From a virus: a stretch of 23,199 nucleotides of DNA. Below the pieces are notes generated by a model that searched no databases, was not told where the DNA came from, and worked only from the letters and a program-made list of their open reading frames with translations. How positions within the stretch are numbered: position 1 is the stretch's first letter; each line of letters opens with the position of its first letter. Of this stretch, positions 5,401 to 20,499 are shown piece by piece. A program made the translations under genes and the position numbers. Where the stretch lies: positions 1 to 23,199 of the IMG/VR virus record IMGVR_UViG_3300009000_000043. One strand, given 5' to 3'.

Positions 5401-6518
5401 ATAATTGCATTGGCATTATCATGATAATCTGCCGCACGTGTAATTTCTTCCGCTGGCTCTTTAAATCCAAATCGTGGTGCACCAATAATTGTATTGGCAA
5501 AAATATTCATCTTTAAATTGCCAGAAGAATGAGCGATCACAGGTGCAGTTTGACCAAAAATTGTATTAGATGTAAATATTTCTTGATTTAATGTAATTGC
5601 AAAAGTGTCTACAATATCGTCACGACGAATAATAAAAGAAGCATCTACAAGACCATCTGTTTCATCAATTTGAATAGTAGAACCGAAATCATTTACTGAT
5701 GCTTGATACCCAGAACCACCATCAACCAATGTGAAGACGACAATACCATTTAAATCTTCAATTTCTACAACAACAGCTTTACCTAAATCTCCACGAACAT
5801 CAGAAAGTATATCCACTATATCTCCAGGGCGATATTCTGCACCAGAAGATACAATTGTGATATTTGAAATGCCAGCATCGATTGGAAATGTAAATCCAGT
5901 TATATTTGGATCTTCAAATTTTAAATAAACCGATTCGCCATCAGCAAAGGTTGCGTTAATATTGGAAACCAATATTTGCATTAAATCACGACCACGAACG
6001 GTCTTACGTTGAATATCCTCTATCAACGCTTCTGCACCCGAATCAATGCCACGAATGGTTTTACCAATAAAGTTATAGATTCTTGGATCGTATTGAGATA
6101 CAAGATAACGCTCTACACGCCAATCGCCTGAAGATGCTTTTAAAATTTGTTCTGCTGGATAAAATACTTCTACATCTTCATTATAAAGTGCACGGAATAA
6201 TAATCTGTAAGATTCAATTGTGCCCTTTGATTGATAAAGATCACGAATGTTTTTAGCAAGTATTCTCTTATTTGCTAAAACTTCATTGGGAATTGATGGA
6301 AGGATTGTTCTGCGAAAATATTCTAGATACTCATCAAGCGTTGTATCAACGTCTTTATATTCTTGTAAATGTCGAAGTGTGTATTCTGCTTTACCAGTTT
6401 GCTCCATGTATTCATAATATGCCTTCATGAAGGCGACGATATTTGGAGCCTCGTCTTTATAAAATTCTGGTAGCTGATTTTCAATCAGCGCAGAAACCTT
6501 TTCATTTAATTCCGACAT
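2493..6518 (-). CDS. 7: baseplate wedge protein gp7-like, with repeated beta modules
   Basis: This 1341-residue protein lies where T4 has gene 7, between 6 and 8. Residues 10-120 (FMKAYYEYMEQ, LYQSKGTIESYRLLFRALYNEDVEVF) match the part of T4 gp7 reading FYSTKGIEASYKFLFKVLYNEEVEIE. RGRDLMQ (175-181) and VTKLIHPAG (895-903) match T4 KGKDLLQ and IRFVHPVG. In T4 these sit in the last third of a 1032-residue protein, so the T4 N-terminal region is absent. Between and after the conserved blocks are degenerate repeats of the types VGxxIxGxxSxAxGxV and GxGYxxxPxxxV. gp7 joins gp10, gp8, gp6 and gp53 in the wedge. It starts in a TAATG overlap with the gp6 stop. The gp7 call rests on position plus these motifs. 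Confidence 0.75.
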   Translation of the reverse strand: MSELNEKVSALIENQLPEFYKDEAPNIVAFMKAYYEYMEQTGKAEYTLRHLQEYKDVDTTLDEYLEYFRRTILPSIPNEVLANKRILAKNIRDLYQSKGTIESYRLLFRALYNEDVEVFYPAEQILKASSGDWRVERYLVSQYDPRIYNFIGKTIRGIDSGAEALIEDIQRKTVRGRDLMQILVSNINATFADGESVYLKFEDPNITGFTFPIDAGISNITIVSSGAEYRPGDIVDILSDVRGDLGKAVVVEIEDLNGIVVFTLVDGGSGYQASVNDFGSTIQIDETDGLVDASFIIRRDDIVDTFAITLNQEIFTSNTIFGQTAPVIAHSSGNLKMNIFANTIIGAPRFGFKEPAEEITRAADYHDNANAIINIANTAEITVGQSIFGVDSSANGIILDIVDNTAGDSWFRIDGYKNFFDGVTFGVSSEDVKVGTPAGVTVGSVGEFQSNTAGYHVATIAPISGSEVSEGDEIVGAISNAFGVVKKIVTTTSLTYEHNPTANTVLSGTISSSGTTVTGVGTSFTSDFVVNDVIKAGGQTGRRITQIDSDTQLITSAAFSPALTSEAYGKGGTYRDTQVIQLTSNNVANTSDYFATGPMKAFIENEGLRLVGSATNIGNNAFGTSNTIVENIHTKLIDSLNFIAGTVGTIGQLSSIVSGEGYTQAPGVRVIDTNVAALGIGEVYMVVQSDDVNWQTGNSSITAPDENDRIIQANTAASGDVKQASGFIGHANGTYEITLRVWQDERQRSPENIEYLLSDGYVTINFFDSAAQETQVGTGTAKIVSITDEGILGNNSNITTAIGANGAITSVRMYDSGFSYVDNELVRLKESGRDNSSQATARIALAGVANSAGYYTTTRSHVSSKRGYIQDNNFYQEYSYQIKVPVSIARYRDIVTKLIHPAGQNLFGLYQSQSEANTTSSISTIKKKRRPSANTANIDFATSRRIKIKDFKLANTEMFKLETPDREMLTFYVRGADDDFVYVSRPAIVNSSVVVANSATISVGDTLTGLSSNAYGIVTSVTGATSPVTLNIEHFDDYSQLIFANTHMLRVEGGSVTAATRGSGYANNETLIFSDVGQEESANGYILTNVAGGINQIVITNQGKGYKSAPTITVDTASGSGATITPTMRDGFSDFIAVGKTISDGGANTAAIVEIISTTDQKIVLKVASNGQFVSTASANLNNIYVGNTWVGNTIQYTDMTAFKGTETIAIKQDVVHLQANTFEKTNISVGDFIYGEDSNVRAEVLEKRGNDIIISYEGSRETLRTAIRFATGEILANERIFKYKNENDFRKAGYIISNNDIVFLGNVYSTSTSSNVGTVSTFTGSTIRNANVYYYVSDIV

Positions 6519-8281
6519 TATACGTTCTCGCCAATAGCATTTACAACAATATCATTGGATTCTATTAATAATATTTGCTGACGAACTGGCGTAACGTCTA
6601 ACAATTCTGGGATTGCATCTACTTTAATTTCTGTTCCTGTAAATGCCGTTGGCGCAAAGTTTTCAATCTCAACTTTACCTGTTACATAATTAATTGTTCC
6701 CGCATTCACAACAACATTCACCTTCGTTTTATCTTGCGTATATCTGTATATATTAACGTTCCCCAAACTGTCATCGTCAAGGAAGCAAGTAAAGCCAGAA
6801 TATGTAAATTGCGTAGAATCGAGTGTTCCCTTTTCAATTGGATTTCTAAATTCTAATGCAACCTTTTGAGTAGTTGTGATCGAAGGCGAAAATCTTTTAG
6901 ACATTTTAATTGAAACTGTATTATTCAATATAGAAGGGTCTAAGTTATCCAAAGATCTAAGCAATCTTGAATATCTTAATTTCTTCCCAAAACGACCCAA
7001 AGAATCTGTTGAATAATTTGTAACAGCAGTTTTAACTAATGCTTCCAATGATTTTTGTGTAAGCGTGGTTGTCGTCAAATCATAATTTACATTTACAGTA
7101 GGAACAATGAAGAGATATTCAGCATCAACAAAAACTGGATCAATAGAAAGAGGTGTTCTATCTACAATCGACGCTCTAATTTGATTCTTTCTACTAATCG
7201 TCAAAAATCTTTCGCCGAATGGTTTAGCTGCAATATAAACTTTACCGAATACTGGACTATCAGCATCTTCGCCACCAAAAGCAACAACGGATTCTAAATC
7301 AGAATTTTCTTGTGTAATAATATTGATATAATCGTTTTTTGTAACCAAACGATTTTGCGCTTCGAAGTTTTTAGGAGCATTAAATTTAACTGAGTCAATG
7401 GTTTCTTGAGCACGTCCGCCACGAGCAGCTGTATTTAAACTCAAAGAAACTGAAGTATATGCTTCTGTAACACCAAGACTATCAACAGAAAATGTATTGG
7501 CGCCATTTGTCACAGTTCCATTACAAATGCGATAGTCTACGATTACAATATTTCCATCAACAAGCGCCTTACCCAAAACACCATCACCAAATGTCAATTC
7601 ATATTTTCTATCGTTTGTTTCATTTAGATAAAAAACAGGTGAAGTGCTTTTAACAGAAGTCACATTCGTGGCTTTTGTAAATACTGTATTTGATGTATCC
7701 GCTGAAGATGTTTGTACACGAACTTTAATGCTTCTTGTATCAACGCCAGCATTCGGAATGATATAGCGAACTGGATCGTTAGAACTAACTGTAAAGCGAT
7801 GCGTAAGCGGCTCGCCTTCAGTAATGTCAATGTTTTTGATATATGTGTCTCTTACGTTCTCAACACTATATGCTTGATCGGTAACATATGTGTATGCTAT
7901 ATCATCGATCGTTGTGGTAAATGTCGCACCTTCTGGAATCGTAAAACGTGGAACGTCTGTATTGACACCAGTAAACGTAAGTTGAACATTAGCTGTAGCA
8001 CCACGAGAAGAAATGGGAGTATATCCTAATTCTTTGGCACGAGATACAACGCTATCACGCTGTTGCGCTGTGTCCAAAAACATTTCGTTGCCAATCATAT
8101 TAAGATAATAAGCATTATAATGAGTATTATAAGCCATTAAATCCAAGAGAGTTGCCATAGCAGAACCTTCAAAGTCATAATCTTTAAACTGTGTTTGACT
8201 TCTTAGGAATGTTTTAAGATTACTGCGAATATCAGCAAAATCTAATTCTGTGACTTGAAGATAAGTATTAGCTTGTGCCAT
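6518..8281 (-). CDS. 6: baseplate wedge protein gp6 (baseplate J family)
   Basis: The 587-residue product starts MAQANTYLQVTELDF and continues with FEGSAMATLLDLMAYNTHYNAY (37-59) and DTAQQRDSVVSRAKELGY (70-87). This is the signature N terminus of gp6/baseplate J proteins. T4 gp6 has 660 residues and forms the dimer ring that closes around the hub and drives sheath contraction. The C-terminal half (KNDYINIITQE, KLRYSRLLRSLDNLD) is the part usually conserved in gpJ-like proteins. The start codon overlaps the gp25 stop by one base (TAATG), and the gene ends in the same kind of overlap with gp7, which suggests coupled translation of 25-6-7. Confidence 0.95.
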   Translation of the reverse strand: MAQANTYLQVTELDFADIRSNLKTFLRSQTQFKDYDFEGSAMATLLDLMAYNTHYNAYYLNMIGNEMFLDTAQQRDSVVSRAKELGYTPISSRGATANVQLTFTGVNTDVPRFTIPEGATFTTTIDDIAYTYVTDQAYSVENVRDTYIKNIDITEGEPLTHRFTVSSNDPVRYIIPNAGVDTRSIKVRVQTSSADTSNTVFTKATNVTSVKSTSPVFYLNETNDRKYELTFGDGVLGKALVDGNIVIVDYRICNGTVTNGANTFSVDSLGVTEAYTSVSLSLNTAARGGRAQETIDSVKFNAPKNFEAQNRLVTKNDYINIITQENSDLESVVAFGGEDADSPVFGKVYIAAKPFGERFLTISRKNQIRASIVDRTPLSIDPVFVDAEYLFIVPTVNVNYDLTTTTLTQKSLEALVKTAVTNYSTDSLGRFGKKLRYSRLLRSLDNLDPSILNNTVSIKMSKRFSPSITTTQKVALEFRNPIEKGTLDSTQFTYSGFTCFLDDDSLGNVNIYRYTQDKTKVNVVVNAGTINYVTGKVEIENFAPTAFTGTEIKVDAIPELLDVTPVRQQILLIESNDIVVNAIGENV

Positions 8282-8691
8282 TAGCGGACTCTCTCTAGAA
8301 TTACATCAAGAACTACTGGTTCAGGGTCATTGATTACATAAAAAGCGAGAGAAAGTGTTAAAGCATTTAAATCGTCTCTTTGTTCAGCGATTACTTCAAT
8401 TACTTCTGCTCTTGGCTCATAGTTATAGATGACTTCTCTTACAGCGTTTTCAAGTTTTTGTTTTGTAGCTGGTGTAAAAAGTTCGAATAACATTGCACGA
8501 ACATTACACCCAATATTCGGTTGAAATGGTCTTTCGTAAAAATTTGTAAGGACGAGCGACTTAACTGATTGCCTTACAGCATTACGATTAGTCTTTCTGG
8601 ATAACTTTCCAGTGACTGGATGTGGTATGAAAGCAAGATCGATGTCGCTATAATACTCAACATTTCTTCTTGCTTCTTTTGATAATGCCAT
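8281..8691 (-). CDS. 25: baseplate wedge protein gp25 (gpW/gp25 family)
   Basis: The 136-residue length is close to T4 gp25 (132). Motifs include DIDLAFIPHPVTGKL (16-30), AVRQSVKSLVLTNFYERPF with PNIGCNVRAMLFELF (38-72), and a C-terminal NALTLSLAFYVI strand. These are typical of gp25, which resembles lysozyme by name only and nucleates sheath polymerisation with gp6 and gp53 in the wedge core. AGGT lies six bases before the ATG. A variant late promoter lies just upstream at 8711-8718. The gene leads the tightly overlapping 25-6-7 set. Confidence 0.95.
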   Translation of the reverse strand: MALSKEARRNVEYYSDIDLAFIPHPVTGKLSRKTNRNAVRQSVKSLVLTNFYERPFQPNIGCNVRAMLFELFTPATKQKLENAVREVIYNYEPRAEVIEVIAEQRDDLNALTLSLAFYVINDPEPVVLDVILERVR

Positions 8692-8710
8692 TTCTATACC
8701 TGTTTATGCT

Positions 8711-8718
8711 TATTTATT
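8711..8718 (-). promoter_or_regulatory. variant late promoter before gp25
   Basis: The minus strand reads AATAAATA, one base from TATAAATA. The predicted start near 8705 would leave about 14 bases before the gp25 ATG, including AGGT. It overlaps the stop codon region of the histone-like gene. The single mismatch and high AT content make this uncertain. Confidence 0.35.
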
Positions 8719-8887
8719 AAGCGTTTTTTGATTCTTGAATCTCTTTTCTACGATCTTTACAGAGTTTAGAGATTTCAGCCAAAGCCTTTCTAGCTCTTGT
8801 TCCAGCGGATTTATTACCACCTTCAAACTTTTCGCTCTCTGTAATATATGTTTCAAAAAGATTTATTAAATTATCATGATTATTCAT
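8717..8887 (-). CDS. Hc1-like histone H1 mini-protein
   Basis: A 56-residue reading frame, MNNHDNLINLFETYITESEK then FEGGNKSAGTRARKALAEIS, LCKDRRKEIQESKNA. The core GNKSAGTRARKALxEI followed by a basic helix is the hallmark of the bacterial histone H1-like Hc1 family, as in GNKAAGQRARK proteins of Bacteroidetes and Chlamydia, and of small relatives in marine phages. The assignment is from memory. It is highly charged and likely all-helical, so it may bind DNA or RNA. AAGGA lies about eight bases before the ATG, and an exact late promoter lies 62 bases upstream. That makes it a late gene between gp5 and gp25, where T4 has nothing similar. Packaging with the genome or host nucleoid binding are both possible; neither is shown. 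Confidence 0.75.
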   Translation of the reverse strand: MNNHDNLINLFETYITESEKFEGGNKSAGTRARKALAEISKLCKDRRKEIQESKNA

Positions 8888-8926
8888 AATTTTTTCCTTG
8901 ACTAATAATTAAAATTTCAGTAAAAT

Positions 8927-8939
8927 AGACTTGTAGTCT
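8927..8939 (-). other. small hairpin in gp5-histone spacer
   Basis: AGACT-TGT-AGTCT is a perfect 5-bp inverted repeat with a 3-base loop. On the minus strand it is followed by ATTTTA. It lies just after the predicted late start (near 8943). It could protect the 5' end of the histone transcript or act as a weak terminator for gp5 read-through. The short stem makes either role tentative. Confidence 0.3.
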
Positions 8940-8948
8940 TTAACGGAC

Positions 8949-8956
8949 TATTTATA
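8949..8956 (-). promoter_or_regulatory. T4-type late promoter for the histone-like gene
   Basis: The minus strand reads TATAAATA exactly, in the noncoding gap right after the gp5 stop. Its predicted start near 8943 gives a leader of about 56 bases ahead of the histone-like ATG at 8887. Its location in a true intergenic spacer makes chance occurrence less likely than for copies inside genes. Confidence 0.7.
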
Positions 8957-8962
8957 ACAGAA

Positions 8963-9892
8963 TTACTTGGTTGGTGGTTTAGTATCTGTTCCACCACCAG
9001 CATCATTACCGTCATTTTGCCCATGCGTATGATTTACAAGGGATATTCCATCAGCGACCACATCGCCTGTTACATATGTTTGTAATCCACTTTGATATGT
9101 TAAATTTGCTACATTAGCTGTTTCAGTTTTCGAACCAGCGATTGTACGAGTTTCGTTTCCGCCAACTACCCAAGAAACATTGCCATCAACATAAACTTCT
9201 AAATCCCCTGTAATGTGCACTTTATCATTTCCAGTAACACTTCTCCATCCATTACTATGATGTGTTACAACATCGCCATTAGCATGGACTTCAACAAAGG
9301 TTCCCGATCTGTGCTTGATATGAATACGCTCATGGAGGGGAGTATCGTCTATCTCAATGAGATGTCCGCTCTCTGACTCATAAACGTGATTATATGGATA
9401 TTGAGCAGCATATGGATCAGCTGGTTCTTTAATAGTTGAATTGACATTTTTTGAAAAGATCTCTGAATTTCTAGCACGACTATTCACATCGCTTTCGTTA
9501 GTGTATCTTGGATAAATGCTTTTAGTACTATCGTCCGTTCTTGGATTTGGGTCATTAAAGCCAACATTTGGAGTACCAAATGAAGACGGAGCGCCAGCCA
9601 TCGTTCCTATAATGACTGGCTCTTGCGCCTGTTCTCCGTCTAGGAAGAATCCGACAACCCACGTTCCCTCAACAATTCCTGTCGGACTCCTGCCGACACC
9701 ACTGATCGCTGCCGAAGTGATGTCTTGCATTGGAGTCGCCCAAGGCAAACTTTCAGTCGGTATCTGTGCTTTATCATCGGTGTGCCAACCGTAACATCTG
9801 ACACGAACCCTTCCGAGTCGTATCGGGTCATTACGGTCTTCAACAACTCCAATGAACCAAACAAAGTTATTCTTCCCAATAAAGTTGCGCAT
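8963..9892 (-). CDS. 5: baseplate hub/spike protein gp5 without lysozyme domain
   Basis: This 309-residue protein has the gp5 N-terminal OB domain (about 8-100: FVWFIGVVEDRNDPIRLGRV, WHTDDK, LPWATPM, VGFFLDGEQAQEPVIIGTM). A linker strand region follows (175-217: SGHLIEIDDTP, RIHIKHRSGTFVEV). Then come at least five VxGxxxxx octads (219-258), the repeat that builds the T4 gp5 triple beta-helix. The end carries H288-T-H290, a spike-tip-like HxH. T4 gp5 has 575 residues with lysozyme at about 174-340. Here residues 100-175 are only a Pro/Asn/Ser-rich linker with no lysozyme motifs. It should trimerise as the membrane-piercing needle under gp27. It starts in a TAATG overlap with the upstream small gene. 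Confidence 0.92.
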   Translation of the reverse strand: MRNFIGKNNFVWFIGVVEDRNDPIRLGRVRVRCYGWHTDDKAQIPTESLPWATPMQDITSAAISGVGRSPTGIVEGTWVVGFFLDGEQAQEPVIIGTMAGAPSSFGTPNVGFNDPNPRTDDSTKSIYPRYTNESDVNSRARNSEIFSKNVNSTIKEPADPYAAQYPYNHVYESESGHLIEIDDTPLHERIHIKHRSGTFVEVHANGDVVTHHSNGWRSVTGNDKVHITGDLEVYVDGNVSWVVGGNETRTIAGSKTETANVANLTYQSGLQTYVTGDVVADGISLVNHTHGQNDGNDAGGGTDTKPPTK

Positions 9893-10077
9893 TACTCATC
9901 TTCACAGACACATTCGCCGCCACCACATACTTCACAAACAACCGCATCTGAAACGATTTCTTGTAAAACTTGTGGGGTTTCTTCTACAATTTCCTCAACC
10001 TCTTGAACTGGCTCAGGAATTTTCTTTTCTGGTTCTACGATTTCTTGTAGAAATTTTTGTTTCTTTGGTAAAGGCAT
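9892..10077 (-). CDS. small acidic CxxC protein, unknown
   Basis: A 61-residue product. Residues 1-10 are basic (MPLPKKQKF), the middle is rich in Glu, Pro and Val, and the end is CEVCGGGECVCEDE, with Cys at 48, 51, 56 and 58. Four closely spaced Cys could bind a metal or form disulfides. I do not recognise a family. The gene is credible because it has AAAGGGA before the ATG and one-base TAATG overlaps with both the kinase upstream and gp5 downstream. The position next to the spike gene suggests a virion-assembly or spike-associated role; this is inference only. Confidence 0.65.
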   Translation of the reverse strand: MPLPKKQKFLQEIVEPEKKIPEPVQEVEEIVEETPQVLQEIVSDAVVCEVCGGGECVCEDE

Positions 10078-10745
10078 TATTTGTCCCTTTCTTGTTTAAT
10101 CCATTTTTTGGCTAAGTGATTTCTTGGTTCACGATTCGCCCACTTTGAAATAGTTTTATAGGCTCGCATTGTGGCATTTTCTACATCAGATGAATCTGAA
10201 TTGTCTACGATAGTAATACCACCACGACCAAATATTGACTGAAACTTTCCAAGATTGTTTTGAACATCTTTCCACATTTTTTCAACAACACCATCAGGAA
10301 GTGATCTTGCTCTTTTATTATTTCTCGCAAGTGCAGTTTCAAGGTCAGTATTTACGAATATCATAGTGGTTTCATATCCAATATCTTCAAGCATTTTCTT
10401 TTGCCTTGAAATCTTTTCGAAGTCTTTACCTGTCCCATCAATTACTAATCCTAATCGACCAGCAATATAAAGATTCATCTGTTTACCAGTTAGTTCTTTA
10501 GATCTAACACGAATAGATTGACCTTGTTTCGAAAAGATTGTTTCTGGATCCATTTCTAAGCCAGCTTTTTTAAGAGCAGTTTCGAAGGCATTGTCAGAAT
10601 TAACAACCTTAAATCCAAGAGAAGGTAATGCAGTTTTGCCAACAACAAATGACTTACCGCTTCCTGGACCACCAGCCAAGAATACAGCTTTAAAGATCGC
10701 TGGGTCATTAACACCCTCTGTCAAGAAATCTTTAAAATTTAACAT
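10077..10745 (-). CDS. P-loop kinase (AAA_33/zeta-like) with capsid-targeting-like N terminus
   Basis: This 222-residue protein has a Walker A motif, GGPGSGKS (25-32), NSD (49-51), VIDGTGKD (101-108) and an arginine-rich lid, RNNKRARS (141-148). This is the layout of small nucleotide/polynucleotide kinases and zeta-type kinases (AAA_33 group). The substrate cannot be told from sequence. Residues 1-10, MLNFKDFLTE, resemble the capsid-targeting sequence of T4 internal proteins (MKTYQEFIAE) and end in L-T-E, which fits the LxE/IxE cleavage rule of prohead protease gp21. It may therefore be packaged in the head and injected. AGAGGAT precedes the ATG. It sits inside the hub operon between gp27 and gp5, where T4 has no kinase. 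Confidence 0.8.
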   Translation of the reverse strand: MLNFKDFLTEGVNDPAIFKAVFLAGGPGSGKSFVVGKTALPSLGFKVVNSDNAFETALKKAGLEMDPETIFSKQGQSIRVRSKELTGKQMNLYIAGRLGLVIDGTGKDFEKISRQKKMLEDIGYETTMIFVNTDLETALARNNKRARSLPDGVVEKMWKDVQNNLGKFQSIFGRGGITIVDNSDSSDVENATMRAYKTISKWANREPRNHLAKKWIKQERDK

Positions 10746-10748
10746 TCA

Positions 10749-12119
10749 TTATCCTCTTGGAACTACTTTAGATTGACTTGGTTGAATTCTGGGTTGTTTA
10801 CCTTCAACCCCAGTATCTTTAATACATTCCAAAAACGTTGTAAAGTTTTCTTCAATGTGTTTATGTCTTACTTTTGTGACTAAGTATTTTCCACTTAGAT
10901 ATTTATCTTCCTTTTTTGCGACTCCATCTATGTTAGTTGCTGGCGGAATGCTGAGATATACTATATCGCCAGCCAACACTTCAGAGTTTCCAGGAATACT
11001 TACACTTAAAACTTTATTTGATATGTGCTTAAAGAACGATCTTCTTTTAGGTTTATTTTGATATGTTTTATTAGGTATATGATTTTCTAATGCAAAAAAT
11101 ATATCAGAATCGTGCCCAGATCTTGTCGTATTTAATTCCACAATTGCTGTATCTTTTGAGGTTCCGAATACAGAATATGGTTGTAATTTGTTAAATTTTT
11201 CATAAATTTTAGAATAATCATAAATAGTCTCTGTTTTCTTTTTTCTCTGAATATCAATAGAGACCGTTTTCGTCTTATATAATCCACCCATAATATTGTC
11301 AAATAAACTAGATTCTTTCTCTACATTATAATTAATAATCTTTAATGGGTCTGTATATTCTTCTTTGGCATTATTATTACCCTCATCATAATTAGATGGA
11401 GCATAAGAAAATGTATATCTTGGTTCTTGAGAAACGATGGTGTTTAAATCTTTAAAATTAAATTTCTCAGCATCTTCCCAAAATACAAAATTAGAAACAG
11501 GTTTATCTGAAATAGATTCTCTGCACAGAAAGTCTATTGTATCGTCTATTCTCATATTTGGTATCACGAATTTCTGACGATTTTTAGTTTCTTCAATATC
11601 ATATGTTTTAGAGATTTTATATTTAAGAGTAGAACTAAGTTCGCTATACAGTGGCTCAAGTGGCTTTCGCATAAACTCTTTTGTAACACTATCAATCATT
11701 TGACTTACAAGGGTTGGCTGCGGATGTCCATATGCTCTTGAAACCTTAGAGTCTATCGTTTGATATGATTCAATCGAAACGCCAGAAAGAATATAAATTT
11801 CGTTTTTCTCGTCAACGGTTTGTCTATTGGATATTTCTGTTACACCAAACACATGAGTTTTGTATTTGGTCTTATCGTTTGGACCGCCTGTTCTGTATGA
11901 TATGATAATTAATTCGCCGCCAGTAATACCGCCGATAGCGTTTAGAGTCCCAGCAGCGTCAAATATTAAAATATCTGTTTGTAAATAATGCGAGAACATG
12001 TCTTGATAAACGCTCCACTCACGAAACAGTTTAAGCAGATCAATTTGTAATCCAGCATTTGTAACGAGTGTGAGAGTTTTTAATTCAACATCACCTGCGT
12101 TTCTATAACCCTCAGGCAT
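10749..12119 (-). CDS. 27: baseplate hub protein gp27-like
   Basis: A 456-residue protein (T4 gp27 has 391). Shared pattern with T4 gp27: an N-terminal tube-like domain with LQTDILIFDAAGTL (46-59), GGELIIISYRTG and KTHVFGVTEIS (87-97), like T4 GMLQFYDSK, GNEIIQISV and KTRIYGCKHFS. There is a middle block, NFVFWEDAEKFNFKDLN then SQEPRYTFSY (210-239), like T4 KFVFVWQDIMGVNMMDYD then NQEPYP. The C terminus has YLVTKVRHKHIEENFTTFLE, like T4 FYVDEVIHEL with THLYMF. gp27 trimers adapt the spike to the tube. It lies upstream of gp5 in the same operon, as expected for hub partners, and overlaps the gp53 stop (TAATG) with AGGAAG as ribosome site. Confidence 0.8.
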   Translation of the reverse strand: MPEGYRNAGDVELKTLTLVTNAGLQIDLLKLFREWSVYQDMFSHYLQTDILIFDAAGTLNAIGGITGGELIIISYRTGGPNDKTKYKTHVFGVTEISNRQTVDEKNEIYILSGVSIESYQTIDSKVSRAYGHPQPTLVSQMIDSVTKEFMRKPLEPLYSELSSTLKYKISKTYDIEETKNRQKFVIPNMRIDDTIDFLCRESISDKPVSNFVFWEDAEKFNFKDLNTIVSQEPRYTFSYAPSNYDEGNNNAKEEYTDPLKIINYNVEKESSLFDNIMGGLYKTKTVSIDIQRKKKTETIYDYSKIYEKFNKLQPYSVFGTSKDTAIVELNTTRSGHDSDIFFALENHIPNKTYQNKPKRRSFFKHISNKVLSVSIPGNSEVLAGDIVYLSIPPATNIDGVAKKEDKYLSGKYLVTKVRHKHIEENFTTFLECIKDTGVEGKQPRIQPSQSKVVPRG

Positions 12120-19681: not shown

Positions 19682-20278
19682 TCATGACGAAAATATATCC
19701 AGAACGATTTGTTTGTATTTCGTTCTTTCAATATTATTGTAAGTATATATGAATGGTCTATATTTGTCAAGCAAAAAGATTAGATCATTCAGCATCATGT
19801 CATCTTTTTTTGACCACGCTTTACTAAATCCAACAAGGTCGTCAAGGATGACAAGAGTATTTATACTTACTGCATGCCTCATATACATCCTATACAAAAT
19901 CGGATGTCCATCGTCAAAAGCAAATAATTGATTAAAGTTTTGCTCTCGTTCGTGAAGGAGAGACAGTTCTTCACGAAAGTTATAAGCCAAAGATTCTAAA
20001 TTCTTCAGCCATTTTTTATAGGCAATCTCAGACTTACCGTTCATAAGATCGCCTATCCATTCAGCACTTGACGTGCTAAAATTCGCAACCAAGTATTTCA
20101 CAAAATCATCACGCTTAAATCTCTTGGCTGCTTTCTCAAACGAAAACCTATCACGACGTGATTGGAACTTCGTCTCAGAAACTTTCATTTTGCCATTATA
20201 TTTGAAGAAGTCATAACCCTTACTGGAGAAATGATTCTTCACGGCAAGATATGTTTGATATGCTTCAAATCCATTCAT
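19682..20278 (-). CDS. 59: gp41 helicase loader gp59
   Basis: A 198-residue protein (T4 gp59 has 217). The N terminus matches T4: FEAYQTYLAVKNHFSSKGYDFFKYN, KVSETKFQSRRDRFSFEKAA, then LVANFSTSSAEWIGDL (T4 Y-K-LYLMIKQHM, YDVIKYN, MRVSDAAYQKRRDKYFFQKL, LVANQDAWIGDI). gp59 places helicase gp41 on gp32-coated forked DNA. Its start overlaps the gp33 stop by four bases (ATGA), and gp32 follows 49 bases downstream. The 33-59-32 neighbourhood repeats that of T4, and no catalytic motif is expected. The call is firm. Confidence 0.92.
   Translation of the reverse strand: MNGFEAYQTYLAVKNHFSSKGYDFFKYNGKMKVSETKFQSRRDRFSFEKAAKRFKRDDFVKYLVANFSTSSAEWIGDLMNGKSEIAYKKWLKNLESLAYNFREELSLLHEREQNFNQLFAFDDGHPILYRMYMRHAVSINTLVILDDLVGFSKAWSKKDDMMLNDLIFLLDKYRPFIYTYNNIERTKYKQIVLDIFSS
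19858..19865 (-). promoter_or_regulatory. possible late promoter for gp32 inside gp59
   Basis: The minus strand reads TATAAATA about 226 bases upstream of the gp32 ATG, inside gene 59. T4 gene 32 is also transcribed late from promoters within its upstream genes, so the position is sensible. Chance remains possible in AT-rich coding sequence. Confidence 0.4.
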
Positions 20279-20499
20279 AGGGGCAGTTTTGAAGTCTTTG
20301 GTAAAAAGTTTAATTCTTGTGCCTCTGTTTCCAGTTTGGCTTTAATTATTGCGCTTAGAAGTTTTGCGGCTGTTTCGATTTCCATTTCTTCACGTTCACA
20401 ATACCAAACAATCGCATCCATATATGATAATTTTTTCTGAGAAACAATTGTTTCAATTATCTCAGAAAATTTTGCTGTCGTCAATACTTCTAATGCCAT
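20275..20499 (-). CDS. 33: late transcription co-activator gp33
   Basis: A 74-residue protein. The pattern FSEIIETIVSQKKLSYMDAI (11-30), a middle acidic helix, and the end LNFLPKTSKLPL is that of gp33 in marine T4-like phages; T4 gp33 itself is longer (112). gp33 bridges host RNA polymerase beta-flap and the sliding clamp, allowing gp55-polymerase to fire TATAAATA late promoters such as those found in this window. It starts three bases after the SleB-like stop, with GGGAAGA as ribosome site, and overlaps gp59 by four bases. It is small, but the conserved ends and T4-like order make it secure. Confidence 0.88.
   Translation of the reverse strand: MALEVLTTAKFSEIIETIVSQKKLSYMDAIVWYCEREEMEIETAAKLLSAIIKAKLETEAQELNFLPKTSKLPL

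Follow-up and report, generated by a model that had tools for sequence, protein, structure and literature searches.

A short Hc1-domain protein encoded ahead of gp25 and gp6 in an uncultured clade of T4-like phages, and the predicted facing promoters in its leader

The gene located between gp5 and gp25 in the DNA studied here encodes a short protein of the Hc1 family, which is best read as a helical-hairpin DNA-architecture protein that in this lineage has moved to the head of the late baseplate operon (Table 1). The DNA, subsequently designated the window, is a virus record of 23,199 bases from a T4-like phage, with gp5, gp25, gp6, gp32, gp59 and gp33 all present. Elsewhere in the window, a P-loop kinase of 222 aa with matches to Pfam AAA_33 and Zeta_toxin is encoded among the baseplate hub genes (10077-10745, minus strand), and an ORF on the minus strand that is open at the contig end (21661-23199) contains many copies of a Cys-containing repeat of the GCPGYAEAYYDQQCSLDALYD type.

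Table 1. Positions in the window of the Hc1 gene, its leader elements and functionally related genes.
Feature	Position	Strand	Remarks
Hc1-domain protein gene	8717..8887	-	56 aa, ATG; Pfam Hc1 E=6.8e-17, purifying selection, hairpin model
Shine-Dalgarno AAGGA	8895..8899	-	part of conserved GTCAAGGA, whose complement contains the -35 box of the antisense promoter
T4-type late promoter octamer TATAAATA, predicted, for Hc1-gp25-gp6	8949..8956	-	exact match; 24/50 distinct leaders
Sigma-70-type promoter TTGACT-17-TAAAAT, predicted, antisense to gp5	8898..8926	+	10/12 consensus bases
gp25 baseplate wedge, next operon gene after Hc1	8281..8691	-	Pfam GPW_gp25, phrog_261
gp6 baseplate wedge	6518..8281	-	Pfam and PHROGs matches
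gp5 baseplate hub OB-domain protein, upstream of Hc1	8963..9892	-	Pfam and PHROGs matches
gp33 late-transcription regulator	20275..20499	-	phrog_254 E=3.7e-21

A short Hc1 gene under purifying selection

An earlier note on this DNA had proposed a histone H1-like mini-gene at this position, and its reading of the gene itself held. The ORF, which starts with ATG, contains the GNKSAGTRARKALAEI motif, the AAGGA ribosome site lies 5' of the ATG at 8887, and a profile search placed the protein in Pfam family PF07432 over residues 1-55, with 61.5 bits vs. a cut-off of 23.5 (59.9 bits in a second search). No PHROGs version 4 family was matched by the protein. An ORF of this size is by itself not beyond chance, because 131 ORFs of the window reach at least 40 residues. 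A scan of viral contigs with the window Hc1 yielded at least 578 relatives, of which 80 were kept for analysis. Comparison of the window with 27 chosen loci gave pN values of 0.06-0.21 vs. pS values of about 0.5-0.9 for Hc1, i.e. synonymous sites are near saturation and the protein is kept; mean pN/pS in these loci was 0.21 for Hc1 and 0.36 for gp25. In some relatives identity of gp25 is down to about 30%, with Hc1 still at about 70-75%. The stretch AGTRARKAL is invariant across a 35-sequence alignment, and invariant basic residues are R31, R33, K34, K41, R47 and K54. One Hc1 copy per record was detected in seven of eight records searched, and none was found in the eighth, which is of HTVC008M type. 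The Pfam match, the conserved relatives and a pN far below pS mark the ORF as a real gene.

The expectation that the frame is conserved in relatives was borne out both by purifying selection and by the order Hc1-gp25-gp6 in the kept loci. The proposed synteny gp5-Hc1-gp25 stood on its downstream side, as gp25 is the next gene in 79 of 80 loci and the contig of the 80th ends there. However, it stood only in part on the upstream side, where a gp5-like stretch is present 5' of Hc1 in 64/80 loci, often with other sequence in between. The range of this arrangement was assessed in gp6-seeded samples, which partly share contigs. Hc1 directly precedes gp25 in 17 of 19 loci with a gp6 at least 52% identical to that of the window, both misses being cut off, and at 41% identity or less Hc1 was found in 0/61 loci (54 with enough sequence). 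With the gp6 of locus L080 as seed, Hc1 was present in 6/15 loci. With Pelagibacter phage HTVC008M as seed it was found in none of 80 loci (69 with enough sequence), and in none of six cultured T4-like relatives having gp25-gp6. From these counts, Hc1 is fixed in a single uncultured clade, outside which its occurrence is patchy; the loci are mutually related, and counts do not represent independent events.

AlphaFold2 predicted a helical hairpin formed by residues 3-22 and 26-55 (pLDDT 96.3, pTM 0.75). Helix 2 of the model is amphipathic, its basic outer face being positioned about 140 degrees from the hydrophobic face. The net charge is modest (11 K/R, 9 D/E) and is split into about -3 for the N-terminal half and about +5 to +6 for the C-terminal half, alike in the three groups examined, phage and bacterial. 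Two such hairpins may pair into a four-helix dimer whose outer faces are basic. Foldseek detected no match to the model at E ≤0.001, the best VIA match (Z 7.9) was a generic hairpin, and the PDB contained no sequence relative (best E 1.2). Hairpins of this kind are widespread; the many similar folds include ribosomal and tRNA-synthetase hairpins.

The earlier note had argued from Chlamydia, in which Hc1 compacts DNA. According to passages of two studies of chlamydial Hc1 (PMC2848022; PMC3469542), its lysine-rich C-terminus binds DNA, while the N-terminus mediates dimerization. The argument is not supported in this form, since the window protein represents the N-terminal part only: its chain of 56 residues ends just past helix 2, and the lysine-rich DNA-binding tail is absent. 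Likewise, it missed the cut-off of NCBIfam NF051889 (HctA) with 17 bits vs. 100 and matched profile positions 9-53 of 121 only. Hence, "histone H1-like" is a label that has passed to a half not known to bind DNA, the DNA-binding half being missing. The short protein is nevertheless the ordinary form rather than a truncation, because the bacterial relatives examined (80 kept of at least 435) are all equally short, comprising 57-62 aa in 80/80 cases. These relatives belong to Spirochaetes, Bacteroidetes and a few others, in agreement with the occurrence in Bacteroidetes that had been stated before.

Predicted late and sigma-70-type promoters in the Hc1 leader

As described earlier, the spacer that separates the stop codon of gp5 (8963) from the Hc1 start codon contains an exact copy of TATAAATA, which we take to be the T4-type late promoter octamer. 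Eight exact copies are present in the window vs. 2.44 expected, a number that is reached by one of 100 shuffles. Of 80 leaders, comprising the window and 79 loci (one locus was too short), 41 have the octamer within 140 nt upstream of Hc1. Removal of leaders at least 75% alike left 50 distinct leaders (28 dropped as alike, 2 as short), of which 24 carry the octamer and 26 have no exact copy; the chance of finding it in a 140-nt stretch on one strand is about 0.7%. The notion that Hc1 has its "own late promoter" was thus right about a late-type sequence in this lineage, but "own" is too strong. The gap between Hc1 and gp25 measures 25 nt and no terminator-like site was found between the two genes, and therefore the predicted late promoter would serve Hc1, gp25, gp6 and onwards. 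Late transcription of the T4 type needs the late sigma factor gp55 and the coactivator gp33, of which gp33 is encoded in the window, a 23-kb fragment.

A further promoter-type sequence, which was missing from the earlier reading of the leader, is located on the opposite strand. Its boxes in the window are TTGACT (8898-8903) and TAAAAT (8921-8926) on the plus strand, and the -35 box overlaps the Hc1 ribosome site; the general leader type comprises TTGAC(A/T)-16/17-TATAAT boxes on the strand opposite Hc1. Antisense boxes with at least 10 of 12 matching bases were detected in 60 of 79 loci vs. 60 of 18,366 random windows (0.33%), and at the same threshold sense-direction boxes were found in 0/79 loci. 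The antisense promoter sequence is present in 37 of the 50 distinct leaders and absent from 13. In six of nine shorter records of the window clade it represents the only match to TTGACN17-18TATAAT within 17-43 kb. Upstream of Hc1 in the other Hc1 sets it was found in 0/83, 0/80 and 0/80 loci, the last set being bacterial. When the 420 nt preceding gp25 were inspected in loci lacking Hc1, an antisense site was present in 15/74, 2/65 and 0/6 cases, at differing positions. In the Hc1 leader, the predicted late promoter and the predicted host-type sigma-70 promoter overlap and face each other, the latter pointing away from Hc1.

The combination of TATAAATA with an antisense sigma-70 leader was also observed in front of an unrelated 712-aa ORF (L514, G031:C1:20300-23300) in a record of 133 kb, G031. 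Therefore, the paired-promoter architecture is not unique to Hc1. Such a leader may be a general device of the window clade.

Other candidate elements of the leader were rejected. The pattern TTAAAG-N-ATTATAC, considered as a middle-type sense promoter for Hc1, is the complement of the sigma-70 promoter. It is present once each in 16 of 30 records, with one of the 16 copies (record G007) not at Hc1, and a looser version has further copies in G031, one of which precedes the 712-aa ORF and another of which lies within a coding region. Translation of the antisense transcript was likewise discarded, as ORFs of at least 40 aa are sporadic and no recurring one was seen. Alternating stems had been drawn by eye as a hairpin or RNA element, but RNAalifold returned 0 pairs on 26 leaders. 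An Rfam scan of the window gave no match.

Gene contexts and the probable role of Hc1

A second sample was seeded with the Hc1 protein of the marine single-cell virus AG-345-O18 (80 loci kept; gene names from PHROGs). In 63 of these 80 loci Hc1 is found near DNA-metabolism genes, namely nrdAB (23), gp33/gp59 (20), gp46 (14) and uvsX (6); the remainder show radical-SAM only (6), the gp25 operon (4) or no marker (7). These counts describe the contexts rather than test them, because the markers were partly picked from the same neighbours. The order gp33-Hc1-gp59-gp32 is seen in 20/80 loci, some of them cut by contig ends; in the window phage gp33 overlaps gp59 with no Hc1 between them. A marine T4-like lineage (L083 and L434-L453) has Hc1 inserted between gp33 and gp59 in 20 of 20 loci. 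Within 120 nt upstream of Hc1, TATAAATA was found in none of the 80 AG-345-O18-seeded loci, and among S-SRM01-type loci the octamer is present upstream of Hc1 in 5/83 (two SAG viruses included). In AG-345-E15, Hc1 resides among ORFs that we read from their sequences as sugar-metabolism-like. None of the baseplate genes of the window was found near Hc1 of S-SRM01; an annotated DNA starvation/stationary phase protection protein is encoded about 3 kb from it (L082, 9247-9681). Bacterial Hc1 genes are free-standing, with no baseplate genes found nearby and no neighbour shared by most or all of them in Spirochaetes and Bacteroidetes.

The phage Hc1 sets did not come together in one group in a tree calculated from 59 columns, many forks of which are open. 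Hc1 of two Nitrospinaceae MAGs (L151, L154) grouped with the single-cell viruses AG-345-O18 and AG-345-E15 (L083, L084), for which a host link or transfer is possible. Hc1 of a contig labelled Pacearchaeota (L098) fell on a long branch inside the phage gp25-type set, and this contig is possibly a misbinned phage contig.

As its relatives reside mostly among phage DNA-replication genes, Hc1 probably handles phage DNA. With moderate confidence, we regard it as a dimer that binds and organizes the phage's own DNA during replication and recombination; in this lineage its action would extend to the late, packaging stage. The basic-faced hairpin would work as a dimer, which would bridge or condense phage DNA while it is replicated and recombined. 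In the window lineage Hc1 would head the late operon Hc1-gp25-gp6, transcribed from the TATAAATA promoter. The overlapping sigma-70 promoter points the other way, and therefore transcription by host polymerase early on would run head-on into late transcription; this polymerase would also occupy the DNA of the Hc1 ribosome site. The polymerase would be remodelled by gp33 and its partners, and the operon would switch on once the gp33-dependent late polymerase takes over. Against this explanation, a short-form Hc1 with tested DNA binding was not found here, the DNA-binding domain of the chlamydial protein is the missing one, and gene context is guilt by association. The modest net charge and the commonness of the hairpin fold also speak against it, as do the contexts in AG-345-E15 and S-SRM01 and the distinct leaders that lack the octamer (26/50) or the antisense promoter (13/50).

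The earlier note had favoured a late protein for packaging. A protein that is made only late, and that either condenses DNA at packaging or travels in the virion, would agree with Hc1 being the first gene of a late operon, preceded by TATAAATA in 24/50 distinct leaders, and passages of a study of jumbo phages propose compaction during packaging for their PF07432 proteins (PMC12619734). However, this role is not general: other T4-like phages carry Hc1 near gp33-gp59-gp32, nrdAB, gp46 and uvsX, contexts that together with 0/80 TATAAATA point to earlier expression in relatives, and the window Hc1 has no lysine tail. We therefore consider this explanation unlikely. Very improbable is a function as baseplate assembly factor or small baseplate subunit. 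It would account for gp25 being next in 79/80 loci and for Hc1 in 17 of the 19 loci whose gp6 reaches 52% identity, both exceptions being cut off, but the family also occurs in other modules and in bacteria without gp25 or gp6 nearby, and Hc1 is absent from the cultured T4-like phages with gp25-gp6 (0/6) and from the HTVC008M-seeded loci (0/80, 69 with enough sequence). The 63/80 DNA-metabolism contexts and the 0/80 TATAAATA indicate that a role in the baseplate, or one in late packaging alone, does not hold generally.

Hc1 could also be an RNA- or protein-binding regulator rather than a protein of DNA architecture, e.g. a dimeric hairpin whose targets are transcripts or, next to gp33, the machinery of late transcription. 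It adjoins gp33 in 20/80 AG-345-O18-seeded loci, its fold is shared with ribosomal and tRNA-synthetase hairpins among many others, and chlamydial Hc1 acts on RNA as well, according to the title of a cited reference. Yet neither an Rfam match in the window nor a conserved RNA fold in the leader was detected, and the nrdAB, gp46 and uvsX contexts are not predicted by such a function, which appears rather unlikely to us. Finally, the Hc1 leader might, though we judge this quite unlikely, be a control point for both directions of transcription and perhaps also an origin of the oriE type. Early host polymerase would then read antisense into gp5, generating primer RNA or silencing late genes, and the overlapping late promoter would later drive Hc1 itself, which would coat new phage DNA and help to end the early, replicative phase. 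If true, the switch between replication and morphogenesis would contain a DNA-architecture protein in a widespread uncultured T4-like clade.

Significance and relation to known systems

We rate the locus as a known domain in a new fixed place with a new leader architecture. Searches of open-access PMC yielded no title or abstract that deals with an Hc1 gene in baseplate operons of T4-like phages. Should the minimal domain handle DNA in the absence of a lysine tail, the family owes its name to the wrong half of its founding protein, and a large group of aquatic phages encodes a DNA-organizing protein that matches no PHROGs version 4 family. The face-to-face late and sigma-70 promoters would provide a compact, testable model in which late operons of T4-like phages outside E. 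coli may stay quiet up to the remodelling of the polymerase.

With chlamydial Hc1/HctA, the window protein shares a similar N-terminal domain, said in part of PMC2848022 to mediate dimerization, and a further likeness is that the chlamydial protein is expressed late in its own life cycle; unlike it, the window protein lacks the lysine-rich C-terminal DNA-binding part. The short Hc1 proteins of Spirochaetes and Bacteroidetes are similar in length and have the same core and the same charge split, but differ in having no baseplate neighbours, no shared neighbours and no antisense promoter (0/80).

In T4, an early promoter that is independent of phage factors serves the origin oriE, according to passages of PMC3016281, and in the T4 annotation the oriE primer RNA complements the transcript of gene 5. 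Similarly, the predicted host-type promoter of the window points into gp5. Iterons are present at T4 oriE, but iteron-like repeats were not found here; a search for 12-nt iterons near gp5, covering 8650-10100 and 8000-11000, revealed no cluster of evenly spaced repeats. T4 repEA/repEB were rejected as positional counterparts, being inside gene 5 and on the other strand, and T4 gene 5.3 (56 aa, near gene 5) was rejected as an Hc1 relative, as it has an I-TevI-like DNA-binding domain.

PF07432 proteins of aquatic jumbo "moraphages" are already in print, with compaction suggested in passages of that report (PMC12619734). Together with the "histone H1" of Synechococcus phage S-SRM01, which is 57% identical over the whole window protein, they are phage-borne members of the same family. 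In contrast to S-SRM01, in which Hc1 is located downstream of lysis genes, Hc1 of the window clade is fixed before gp25 and preceded by a predicted late octamer and a predicted antisense sigma-70 promoter.
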